From the NCBI RefSeq assembly GCF_001187555.1, contig NZ_LFIJ01000001.1, positions 398,169-462,168 of the forward strand: a stretch of DNA of 64,000 nt, written 5' to 3'. Position numbers and translations under genes: made by a program. Shown in pieces: positions 50,137 through 55,672 of this stretch. Positions within the stretch are counted from its first letter, which is position 1. Every line of letters begins with the position of its first letter. The notes below the pieces were generated by a model, which had not been told where the DNA came from, searched no databases, and saw nothing but the letters and a program-made list of their open reading frames with translations. Source of the DNA: Gilvimarinus polysaccharolyticus (GTDB lineage: Bacteria > Pseudomonadota > Gammaproteobacteria > Pseudomonadales > Cellvibrionaceae).

Positions 50137-50467
50137 GCAAAAAAAAGACCCACTTAACGTGAGCCTCTTATGCGATTAATACCTGTGTCATCCATGTAGG
50201 CTTGGGTACGTCCTTTACTGCTTATTGTTCCCGTGGCATCCGGCCTGGTTACCCTTTAGCTGCTGTTGGAGATTCTATGCTGTTCGGCGTCCTTGTGCCG
50301 AGCGACAAATCCTTGTCTCATCCAGATTGTTATCGTTATGTTCTTCCTTGGCCATTCCGTGGCATGACATCCATGTGCTTTGTCCTTAGCCTGCCGCTAG
50401 GCTAATGTTTTGTACGTGTGCATCCTGCGAACCTTCCTGGCCCTTGGTCATCCTTGTGGCGTCCCTG
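50137..50467 (-). ncRNA. CsrB/RsmZ-type CsrA-sequestering small RNA
   Basis: On the minus strand about 330 nt contain 15 GGA trinucleotides, where roughly five are expected by chance. Several match the CsrA/RsmA consensus: ACAAGGAUGA (GGA opposite 50451-50453), ACAUGGAUGU (50370) and ACAUGGAUGA (50191). Many are displayed in hairpin loops: CGGC-ACAAGGAC-GCCG (50285-50300), GACAA-GGAT-TTGTC (50304-50317), GCCA-CGGAA-TGGC (50351-50363) and GGC-CGGAT-GCC (50235-50245). A perfect TTAGCC/GGCTAA stem lies at 50386-50405. A U8 terminator ends the RNA and a GacA-like site lies upstream. Such RNAs titrate CsrA/RsmA and switch lifestyle and secreted-enzyme genes. The 5' end is estimated from a GATACT -10-like element. 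Confidence 0.85.
50139..50169 (-). terminator. Intrinsic terminator of the CsrB-like RNA
   Basis: In minus orientation AAGAGGCTCAC (50159-50169) pairs with GTGGGTCTTTT (50143-50153) over 11 positions, three of them G-U, around loop GTTAA. The U-run is eight residues (50139-50146). Confidence 0.85.
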
Positions 50468-50474
50468 TATTGCT

Positions 50475-50542
50475 AGTATCCCTAAAGTCGATATGTAGAG
50501 ATAGTCGCTATTAACGTTAGTTTTTGTGCGACATCTCTTACA
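50475..50542 (-). promoter_or_regulatory. GacA-type upstream activating sequence and promoter of the CsrB-like RNA
   Basis: In minus orientation TGTAAG-N6-CGCACA (50525-50542) matches the GacA/UvrY box TGTAAGN6CTTACA at 10 of 12 fixed positions. A GATACT -10-like hexamer lies at 50475-50480 with no good -35. The box centre is about 66 bp before the inferred start, close to the position known for Pseudomonas rsmY/rsmZ. Confidence 0.65.
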
Positions 50543-50591: not shown

Positions 50592-52022
50592 CTATTTTAT
50601 TATCTTATAGCAGGGTTTATAGGTACTGCCGGGCAGCTTCATACGCCCTTGATCTTGAAAAGCCTGCAGCAGCTCATCAACCGGCTGCATAATGCTTGAT
50701 TCACCACAAATCTCAAATAAACCGTGCCTTTCAATGGCGCGAATCCCTTCGTCTTTAACGTTGCCCGCGACAATGCCCGAAAACGCTCGGCGCAAGTTTG
50801 CCGCTAAGGTGTGAGTCTCTTGATTTTTATGCAGGGCAAGTTTGCTCATGTTGGCGTGGGTGGGGGCAAACGGCTGCTGAAACAGCGGGGCGATTTTAAG
50901 CTGCCAATTAAAGTAGTAAGCGTCGTCGGTGTTTTTACGGAATGTGCGTACCTCGGCGATGCCCTGTTGCATAGTGCGGGCGACAGTTTCGGGGTCATCG
51001 ATAATAATTTGATAGCGTGACTGTGCCTCGGCCCCTAGGGTGCTGCTGATAAACTCATCAATTTGGGTAAAGTACGCAGCGCTAGAGGCCGGTCCGGTAA
51101 ATACCAACGGGAAGGGCAGGTTGGCATTATCGGGGTGCAGTAAAATCCCCAATAGATACAAAATCTCTTCGGCGGTACCAGCGCCACCTGGAAATACCAC
51201 AATACCGTGGCCGGCGCGAACAAACGCTTCTAGGCGTTTTTCGATATCGGGCATGATCGCCAGCTCGTTCACGATGGGGTTGGGAGCTTCGGCGGCAATA
51301 ATACCGGGTTCGGTAATGCCAATATAACGCCCTTGGCCGAGACGTTGTTTGGCGTGACCAATGGTCGCGCCCTTCATTGGTCCTTTCATGGCGCCAGGGC
51401 CACAGCCAGTGCATATGTCTAGGCCGCGCAAGCCCAGCTCGTAACCCACCTTTTTACTGTAGTCGTACTCGCCCACGCTGATCGAGTGACCACCCCAGCA
51501 GACGATAATGTTGGGATCGATATTGGGGCGAATAATGCGCGCGTTGCGCAGCATATGAAACACCGCATCGGTGCAGGCCTCGGCTGATAATTGGTTGTCT
51601 TGGTTGGCCAATTCACGAGTGTCAGCCATGCGGCGGTCACCGCTGGCAAAAATCACATCGCGTAACACGGCAAACAAGTGTTCGCTCACCCCGCGTATCA
51701 TTTTGCCATCGACAAACACGCTGGCCGGCGCCCCTTTAATATCAAGCTTAATGCCGCGCTCTTCTTGAATGACTTTAATATCAAAATTGGGATAACGCTC
51801 GAGCAGTTCTTTACCGTCATCGAGTGAGTTGCCACAGTTAAGCACGGCTAATGAGCAGCTACGAAACAGCTTATAAAGGCCGCTCTGGCTAATATCCAGT
51901 AACTTGGCAGCCTCGGTTTTAGACAAGATATTGAGCTGTTCTTGCGGAGCGATAATTGCATCGATGGTTTCGTGGTGATCGGTATGCTGGTCTGCGTGTT
52001 GATAGGGTTGATTGTGCTGCAT
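50592..52022 (-). CDS. ppnN: Pyrimidine/purine nucleotide 5'-monophosphate nucleosidase PpnN (LOG family)
   Basis: The 476-residue protein matches E. coli PpnN/YgdH over its length: an N-terminal regulatory domain, then a Rossmann LOG domain with CWGGHSISVGEY, ICTGCGPGAMKGPMKGA (203-219) and PGGAGTAEE (278-286), and a C-terminal domain with AFSGIVAGNVKDEGIRAIE. PpnN cleaves NMPs to base and ribose 5-phosphate and is activated by (p)ppGpp in E. coli, which links it to relA. A His-rich N-terminal tail (about 1-18) is unlike E. coli. Confidence 0.95.
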   Translation of the reverse strand: MQHNQPYQHADQHTDHHETIDAIIAPQEQLNILSKTEAAKLLDISQSGLYKLFRSCSLAVLNCGNSLDDGKELLERYPNFDIKVIQEERGIKLDIKGAPASVFVDGKMIRGVSEHLFAVLRDVIFASGDRRMADTRELANQDNQLSAEACTDAVFHMLRNARIIRPNIDPNIIVCWGGHSISVGEYDYSKKVGYELGLRGLDICTGCGPGAMKGPMKGATIGHAKQRLGQGRYIGITEPGIIAAEAPNPIVNELAIMPDIEKRLEAFVRAGHGIVVFPGGAGTAEEILYLLGILLHPDNANLPFPLVFTGPASSAAYFTQIDEFISSTLGAEAQSRYQIIIDDPETVARTMQQGIAEVRTFRKNTDDAYYFNWQLKIAPLFQQPFAPTHANMSKLALHKNQETHTLAANLRRAFSGIVAGNVKDEGIRAIERHGLFEICGESSIMQPVDELLQAFQDQGRMKLPGSTYKPCYKIIK

Positions 52023-53968: not shown

Positions 53969-55672
53969 ATGGCGACAATAAACCGGCGAGCTTACGCTGA
54001 TATGTATGGCCCCACCACTGGGGATAAAGTTCGCTTAGGTGATACCGAGCTGTGGCTAGAGGTTGAGCGCGATTACACTCGTTACGGTGAAGAAGTAAAA
54101 TTTGGTGGCGGCAAGGTAATCCGCGACGGTATGGGGCAATCTCAAGCCAGCTGTTTTGATACCCCGGACACGGTGATTACCAACGCCCTTATTTTGGATC
54201 ACTGGGGCGTGGTAAAGGCCGATGTGGCGATTACCGCTGGCCGCATTAGCGCTATTGGTAAAGCAGGCAACCCAGATATTCAATCCGAAGTGGACATTGT
54301 GATTGGCCCCGGCACCGAAATTATTGCCGGTGAAGGCCAGATATTAACCGCCGGCGGTATTGATGCGCACATCCACTTTATTTGCCCACAGCAAATAGAG
54401 GAGGCATTAATGAGCGGCATCACCACCATGATTGGTGGTGGCACGGGTCCCGCTACCGGCACTAATGCCACCACTTGCACTCCTGGCCCCTGGCACATTA
54501 GCAAAATGTTGCAAGCGGTAGAAAGCTTTCCCATGAACATCGGTTTGTTAGGCAAGGGCAACGCCAGCCTACCGATCGCCCTAGAGGAGCAATTAGAGGC
54601 GGGCGCACTCGGATTAAAGCTGCACGAAGATTGGGGCACGACGCCGGCGAGTATTGATAACTGTTTAAGTGTTGCCGAAAGGTATGATGTACAAGTGGCG
54701 ATTCATACCGACACCTTGAATGAGTCGGGCTTTGTTGAAGACACTATCGCCGCGTTTGCCGGCCGCACCATTCACACCTACCACACCGAGGGTGCCGGCG
54801 GCGGTCATGCGCCCGATATTATTAAAGCCTGCGGCTTGGATAACGTTTTGCCGTCGTCCACCAATCCGACTCGGCCCTATACAGTAAACACCATCGACGA
54901 GCACTTGGATATGTTGATGGTGTGCCATCACCTTGACCCCAATATTCCAGAGGACGTCGCCTTTGCCGATTCGCGTATTCGCAAAGAAACCATTGCCGCC
55001 GAAGATATTTTGCACGACTTAGGCGCGTTCTCGATGATCAGCTCAGACTCGCAAGCTATGGGGCGGGTGGGTGAGGTGGTGTGCCGCACTTGGCAAACAG
55101 CACATAAAATGCGAGTGCAGCGCGGCGCACTGCCGGGCGAGACCAGCAGTGTCGATAATTTCAGGGCCAAACGTTACATTGCCAAATACACCATAAACCC
55201 TGCAGTGGCTCATGGTATTTCTCACGAGGTTGGCTCTATTGAAGTGGGGAAGCTGGCCGATATCGTACTTTGGAAACCGGCGTTTTTTGGTATTAAACCT
55301 TCGTTAATTATTAAAGGTGGAGCTATTGCCGCCGCGCCTATGGGCGATCCTAATGCGTCTATCCCAACACCGCAGCCGGTACACTACCGGCCGATGTTTG
55401 GTGCCTACGGCCGCGCCTGTACTGGCACCAGCGTTAGCTTTGTCAGTCAAGCGGCGCTGGATGCTGGTATCGCAGGGTCGCTTGAATTAGAGCGACGTTT
55501 AGTGGCGGTGAAAAACTGCCGCTCGGTGACCAAAGCCGATATGCGCCTAAACGACTACCAGCCCCATATGGAAGTCGATCCGCAAACCTATGAGGTGCGC
55601 GCCGATGGCCAGCTGTTGACTTGCGAGCCGGCCAGCGAGCTACCTTTAGCACAGCGTTACAGTCTATTTTAA
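53969..55672 (+). CDS. ureC: Urease alpha (catalytic) subunit
   Basis: The 567-residue catalytic subunit keeps every nickel-site residue at the classical Klebsiella numbering: H134 and H136 (GIDAHIHF), carbamylated K217 (LGLKLHEDW), H246 (VAIHTDTL), H272 ([10 protein letters not shown]) and D360 ([12 protein letters not shown]). The flap His H320 is in VCHHLDP. It hydrolyses urea to ammonia and carbamate in the cytoplasm. Confidence 0.98.

Follow-up and report, generated by a model that had tools for sequence, protein, structure and literature searches.

CsrB of Escherichia coli (RF00018) is an RNA of 369 nt with 22 GGA motifs, and the RNA described here, predicted in Gilvimarinus polysaccharolyticus, is likewise long. 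The likeness extends to a UvrY-type palindrome upstream, an intrinsic terminator and a CAGGGA near the 5′ end; GGA motifs in predicted hairpin loops exceed chance in the Gilvimarinus orthologues taken together. However the Gilvimarinus RNA stays below the Rfam cut-off, and its hairpins are less regular than those of CsrB. The genomic settings also differ: csrB of E. coli K-12 is found 1.8 kb from ppnN, on its other side and with syd and queF in between, whereas the Gilvimarinus RNA immediately follows ppnN and shares its strand. According to an excerpt of PMC4682653, the UvrY palindrome of E. coli csrB is centered at -183, with a second crosslinked site near -35; the palindrome of the Gilvimarinus RNA is centered near -66.

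With RsmY, RsmZ and RsmX of Pseudomonas (RF00195 and relatives) the predicted RNA has the GacA palindrome and the repeated GGA in common, and one orthologue is weakly RsmY-like. Rsm RNAs are given as 110-124 nt long (excerpt of PMC7911923), compared with 330 nt for the predicted RNA; a second RNA of ~180 nt from the same genome is nearer in size. By description, the RNA can also be likened to the intergenic GGA-repeat RNAs CsrB1 and CsrB2 of Shewanella, ~420 nt long and with UvrY boxes (PMC3171408, in part), and to Pf1-Pf3 of Pseudoalteromonas, which have 25, 21 and 9 GGA (PMC11882849, in part). They too are several per genome; as described they occupy other genomic places. Genomes of Pseudomonas, Vibrio and Pseudoalteromonas are known to carry several Csr RNAs each (excerpts of PMC11882849 and PMC7911923). 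In the excerpted part of a Teredinibacter genome paper GacS, GacA and CsrA are reported, and no RNA is named. In the open-access literature searched no paper was found on Csr RNAs in Cellvibrionaceae, and none that combines Cellvibrionaceae with CsrA. A 2006 NAR paper is said to deal with the prediction of CsrA-regulating RNAs and may list a relative.

The minus strand at 50468-50139 of the window, i.e., of the whole 64,000 nt of G. polysaccharolyticus DNA analysed, very probably (probability about 0.92, judged from sequence) encodes a small RNA of the CsrB/RsmZ type that would sequester CsrA. An earlier note on this DNA had arrived at a CsrB/RsmZ-type reading, which is supported by the recurrence of the unit behind ppnN, by compensatory changes, by the GacA/UvrY-type box and by weak Rfam matches of three orthologues.

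The GGA-rich unit and its predicted promoter

Between positions 50137 and 50542 there are 16 GGA motifs on the minus strand and 1 on the plus strand. When GGA density is scored per 330 nt over the whole window on either strand this region ranks at the top; the minus-strand mean is 1.9, and the next best non-overlapping stretch has 11. The predicted transcript contains 15 GGA, exactly the number that the earlier note had given for ~330 nt, and 10 ANGGA. The sixteenth minus-strand GGA overlaps the -10 element and is outside the transcript. Letter shuffles of the predicted RNA have a mean of 8.1 GGA (p 0.003). The three sites that had been called near-perfect, at 50453, 50372 and 50193, agree in 9-10 of 12 positions, by hand count, with what we take to be the CsrA SELEX consensus. 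The claimed U8 terminator is also present, directly behind an 11-pair stem. In the list of open reading frames the minus strand of 50137-50542 has no ORF of at least 60 aa, and the opposite strand has one 67-aa TTG frame. The coordinates of all features are in Table 1.

Table 1. Features of the predicted small RNA unit and the adjacent gene (window positions)
Feature	Position	Strand	Remarks
GacA/UvrY-type upstream palindrome TGTAAGAGATGTCGCACA, 18 bp	50525..50542	-	0-mismatch to TGTARGN6CNYACA; kept in Gilvimarinus and Cellvibrio
Promoter box GCGACTAT	50501..50508	-	16 nt after palindrome; about -40 to -33
-10 element GATACT	50475..50480	-	20 nt after box GCGACTAT
Predicted CsrB/Rsm-type sRNA, 330 nt, 15 GGA	50139..50468	-	start inferred from -10 element; end is U8
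Conserved 5′ hairpin GGGCC-AGGAA-GGUUC, loop GGA	50429..50443	-	one orthologue with compensatory changes: 2 of 5 helix-1 pairs changed on both sides
Intrinsic terminator hairpin, 11 pairs	50143..50169	-	runs into U8 ending at 50139; 7 inner pairs (helix 5) kept in 8 of 8 orthologues
ppnN, nucleotide 5′-monophosphate nucleosidase	50592..52022	-	same-strand upstream neighbor of sRNA; NF038390 747 bits, cut-off 450

The upstream neighbor had been named as ppnN and the source as a Cellvibrionaceae-type genome; the NCBIfam match of the gene (Table 1) and the genus Gilvimarinus agree with both. The predicted sRNA gene beside ppnN is unannotated in this Gilvimarinus genome.

The palindrome resembles TGTAAGN6CTTACA as well as the E. 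coli csrB site TGTGAGAGATCTCTTACA (site from an excerpt of PMC4682653). A sigma-70 consensus scan did not pick up the sRNA promoter of the window, in which the place of the -35 element is occupied by GCGACTAT. The layout that the family would share is palindrome, 16 nt, GCGACTAT, 20 nt, GATAAT. Among 45 promoters, a set that includes some upstream of protein genes, a strict regex placed the box 16 nt after the palindrome in 29; in 7 others the regex halted at an earlier look-alike and the box is visible at 16, 3 gave a different spacing, and the regex failed on 6. Of 39 promoters, 14 have a -10 element at a distance of 20 nt downstream of the box.

Taken by itself the palindrome pattern lacks specificity: when one mismatch is allowed it has 142 matches in the genome, and a control pattern has 97. 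Without mismatch it occurs in 8 distinct places, two of them before GGA-rich RNAs. Five of these boxes (L218, L220, L221, L223 and L225) were rejected as sRNA promoters, neither flank having more than 7 GGA per 300 nt; the box at L222 was rejected as well, as it precedes a small protein gene and is without a GCGACTAT box. This L222 palindrome (~1501; G000:C1:936283-936300) is a 0-mismatch GacA box, and the small ORF that begins ~95 nt downstream is ComEA-like by eye (helix-hairpin-helix).

Conservation and structure behind ppnN

A comparison of the stretch with 58 relatives gave strong matches within the genus Gilvimarinus. Orthologous gaps were obtained by a PpnN search over 144 Cellvibrionaceae genomes, and the sRNA unit follows ppnN in 8/8 gaps of Gilvimarinus, 19/20 of Cellvibrio (the exception is L039), 3/3 of genus g20 and 2/2 of genus g25. 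A promoter model, R1, was trained on 25 sequences covering the palindrome, the promoter and the 5′ end of the RNA. It matches 32 of 70 ppnN gaps, 7 of these 32 being outside the R1 training set, and leaves 38 without a match (L039 and 37 others). The 37 belong to a group of 40 gaps in which L061-L063 match R1. A density of 10-12 GGA per 300 nt on the ppnN strand is seen in six of the 37, and two of these six, L075 and L085, look coding by eye.

The ppnN strand of the eight Gilvimarinus gaps has 14-18 GGA per 300 nt. Their alignment displays conservation of the palindrome, the -10 element, the 5′ segment and the terminator, and a variable middle; across Gilvimarinus and Cellvibrio the GGA motifs, promoter and terminator are retained while the sequence drifts. 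Four of the 15 GGA sites of the window are in the same column in all 7 other Gilvimarinus sequences, and 10 of 15 have a GGA no more than two columns away in six or all seven of them. All eight RNAs have more GGA than letter shuffles, each at p 0.003 or lower. The earlier note had named loss of GGA motifs and hairpins in close relatives as evidence against an RNA; in the alignment of orthologous ppnN gaps that it had suggested, the GGA motifs are kept and the hairpins show compensatory changes. Its placing of the size nearer enterobacterial CsrB than the Rsm RNAs of Pseudomonas holds in part: the predicted Gilvimarinus transcripts range from 244 to 430 nt (14-22 GGA). A further element of the alignment, at A2 columns 313-326, is the non-GGA sequence CGACAGGGG, which is invariant in 7/8 Gilvimarinus and degenerate in the window.

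The structural evidence is comparative and not drawn from the window alone, because in the window the loop count is not significant and the fold is no better than that of shuffles. GGA motifs do occur in hairpin loops, as the earlier note had stated, but its figure of at least five was slightly generous: 4 of the 15 (50437, 50358, 50312 and 50292) are in loops with at least 4 uninterrupted closing pairs, which is not above chance (p 0.15-0.18). Summed over the eight Gilvimarinus RNAs, 51 GGA are in loops, compared with 23.5 +/- 4.3 in shuffles with the GGA fixed (maximum 37 in 1000); taken singly, four RNAs are significant and four, the window included, are not. Against dinucleotide shuffles the window RNA fold has a z of -0.37 (-0.21 in a second run), the E. 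coli CsrB fold a z of -3.85, and three of the eight Gilvimarinus folds a z of -1.9 or lower. Global fold stability was discarded as support, being negative for the window and for 5/8 Gilvimarinus RNAs.

In a five-helix consensus structure 99.4% of the alignment cells are paired, a figure biased in favor of this structure, which itself derives from the consensus. Changes on both sides of a pair are found in 5 of 20 pairs; none of 500 shuffles reaches 5, and slid controls give 0-2. For further pair types the same structure gives a count that does not exceed that of shuffles (339 of 500). Compensatory changes are seen in the GGA hairpins of the Gilvimarinus alignment.

In the Rfam search that the earlier note had proposed, the window has no match to any Csr/Rsm family at E 10 and gives only three unrelated matches at chance level. 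Three of the seven other Gilvimarinus orthologues have matches below gathering score, all at the correct place and strand: L032 and L036 to CsrB over the full model (34.6 bits, E 7.1e-6, and 23.2 bits, E 0.02) and L038 to RsmY (29 bits, E 0.0041). Only the L032 match is clearly above noise, because an unrelated family, BjrC68, reaches E 0.013 on orthologue L041 in the same scan, and GGA-rich composition may add to the L032 score. The scan took in 15 loci with an orthologue, 7 from Gilvimarinus and 8 from elsewhere, and 12 of them are without a Csr-clan match. The gathering scores are 71 bits for CsrB (RF00018) and 57 bits for RsmY (RF00195), and the best orthologues reach 34.6 and 29 bits. By the families' own criterion the window RNA is outside both CsrB and RsmY; the kind of RNA is itself already known. 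The Rfam CsrB model over 274 genomes of the class gives no match above cut-off and one weak match. Elsewhere in the window, the urease ORF 53969-55672 has an antisense match to Rfam 5_ureB_sRNA (106.7 bits) at 54121-54404 on the minus strand; this match may reflect no more than conserved coding sequence.

A shared ancestral synteny with E. coli csrB was considered and rejected. R1 matches 6 Gilvimarinus and Cellvibrio loci and none of 74 and 29 other ppnN loci, in a survey of 80 named and 29 new loci (94 genomes with ppnN there) with flanks of just 1.5-3 kb. It should be noted that R1 also misses E. coli csrB (L102), hence its zero is no proof of absence. A regex scan around ppnN flagged 9 loci outside Gilvimarinus and Cellvibrio and missed the true Cellvibrio boxes L112 and L113; 7 of the 9, of the type TGTA(A/G)GT(C/T)GG(T/C)TCCCACA, were rejected, as by eye they read as tRNA T-arms. 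An evolutionary link to E. coli csrB is unproven.

Proposed function and alternatives

The genome has one CsrA, which scores above the cut-offs of two CsrA families and is close to solved CsrA/RsmA proteins. A GacA/UvrY homologue with 48% identity to E. coli UvrY has D54 and adjoins uvrC, as in E. coli. The alignment of a kinase with BarA spans residues 4-906, at 36%. The GacA protein (256 bits, cut-off 280) and the kinase (707 bits, cut-off 890) are below the family cut-offs; GacA/UvrY and BarA are still their best-matching families. Going by sequence features, the locus and genome have what marks the class, i.e., the number of GGA, a putative GacA/UvrY palindrome upstream, the predicted terminator, and genes for CsrA and BarA/UvrY.

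In the proposed mechanism, the BarA/GacS-type kinase would phosphorylate the GacA/UvrY regulator, which would bind the palindrome and, together with GCGACTAT and GATACT, lead to a transcription start near 50468. The RNA would then offer up to 15 GGA sites, several of them in hairpin loops, and could capture several CsrA dimers, so that mRNAs repressed or protected by CsrA would be freed. Transcription, its start, the dependence on GacA, CsrA binding and the targets are steps that we infer.

The position of the unit, on the same strand and ~120 nt behind the ppnN stop codon, would also suit a 3′ UTR of the ppnN mRNA that serves as a CsrA-binding tail and not as an independent RNA, and RsmA-binding RNAs derived from 3′ UTRs are predicted in Vibrio fischeri (excerpt of PMC5568370). 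However a conserved promoter with a GacA box is placed between ppnN and the RNA, the same promoter type is found before GGA-rich RNAs elsewhere, away from ppnN, and in Cellvibrio G071, whose ppnN gap is without the unit, the best R1 match is elsewhere; a 3′ UTR is considered very improbable. A small RNA of another sort, e.g., a base-pairing sRNA in which GGA is incidental, would be in keeping with the conserved non-GGA CGACAGGGG in 7/8 Gilvimarinus, itself degenerate in the window, and with a global fold that is not unusually stable. But it is the GGA that persists across orthologues, the GacA box is as in csrB/csrC, and the weak covariance matches are to CsrB and RsmY, so an RNA of this other sort is extremely unlikely.

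An intergenic stretch that is purine-rich by chance, or a decayed gene, has to be weighed since 10 or more GGA per 300 nt are common around ppnN in unrelated genomes. The conservation, compensatory changes, promoter and terminator in 8/8 congeners stand against it, as does a minus strand that is free of ORFs of at least 60 aa here, and the probability of this reading is close to negligible. An independent CsrA-sequestering RNA is the preferred reading.

Gilvimarinus and Cellvibrio are known as polysaccharide degraders, and the earlier note expected Csr/Gac to turn on secreted hydrolases in such a genome, a putative role. The sRNA would make the Gac/Csr switch of these organisms accessible to study and would extend Rfam, and the regular promoter can be used to search the family for GacA targets.

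Further predicted GGA-rich RNAs in the family

A second RNA, of ~180 nt and with 7 GGA, is predicted on contig C2 of the same genome (L224/L245/L346; L224 1501-1770, plus strand, G000:C2:1041926 onward). It has a palindrome, the box ACGACTAT, a -10 element and a terminator, and is found behind a gene that is of OmpA type by eye. Its GGA number has p 0.04 against shuffles, and 4 of the 7 are in loops (p 0.08). By BLAST the second RNA is present in 7/8 Gilvimarinus genomes; against the Csr families of Rfam it gave no match.

At E 0.05, R1 has two matches in the genome of the window, both before GGA-rich RNAs, the first being an R1 training sequence. At the same threshold it matches in 129 of 144 genomes of the family and 28 of 32 genera, training genomes included. 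Ten genomes were checked match by match: 31 of 39 R1 matches stand before a total of 30 GGA-rich RNAs, and no such RNA follows the other 8, some of which are at protein genes. This split is our own classification from counts, with some matches also read directly. Three Gilvimarinus genomes have 2 GGA-rich RNAs each; for four complete Cellvibrio genomes the numbers are 4, 4, 4 and 5, and in other genera there are 2 (g23), 4 (g29) and 1 (g4). Tandem triples occur in two g29 genomes (L315, L318) and a duplicated pair in g19 (L319). This family-wide set of RNAs merits description.

The short form is present in all ten genomes examined. Near its terminator 13 of 17 short RNAs have CATCCTGT (L346, L345, L344, L249, L251, L302, L325, L327, L337, L355 and L357-L359), and variants, read by eye, are AATCCTGT in L343, TATCCTGT in L356 and CATCCTGC in L247 and L248. 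The element is complementary to the CsrA-site core ACAGGATG: the conserved CAUCCUG(U) just before the terminator is the complement of (A)CAGGAUG, a CsrA-site core that 5 of the 8 long Gilvimarinus RNAs have as ACAGGAUG and the window has as GCAGGAUG. The element is predicted to be unpaired at 0.22-0.76, not consistently; the L337 position in this result seems to be a later match, past its terminator.

Cellvibrionaceae might be pictured with a Csr RNA set of their own, driven by GacA, with widespread short and variable longer forms under one promoter, in which the short RNA would mask CsrA sites by pairing through the CAUCCUGU element. As a whole this sequence-based picture is unlikely; if true, an RNA-RNA layer would be added to the CsrA sponge, and the masked sites would belong to the long RNA or to mRNAs. 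Against it stands the inconsistent prediction of the element as unpaired; moreover, a sequence complementary to the CsrA consensus may exist for other causes.

In four Cellvibrio genomes (L299, L350, L362, L363) the same promoter type is found before genes for small proteins that are related to one another and by eye resemble MTILNIG-EAFNSTEVAEKVQ; these genes are a possible direct GacA target.
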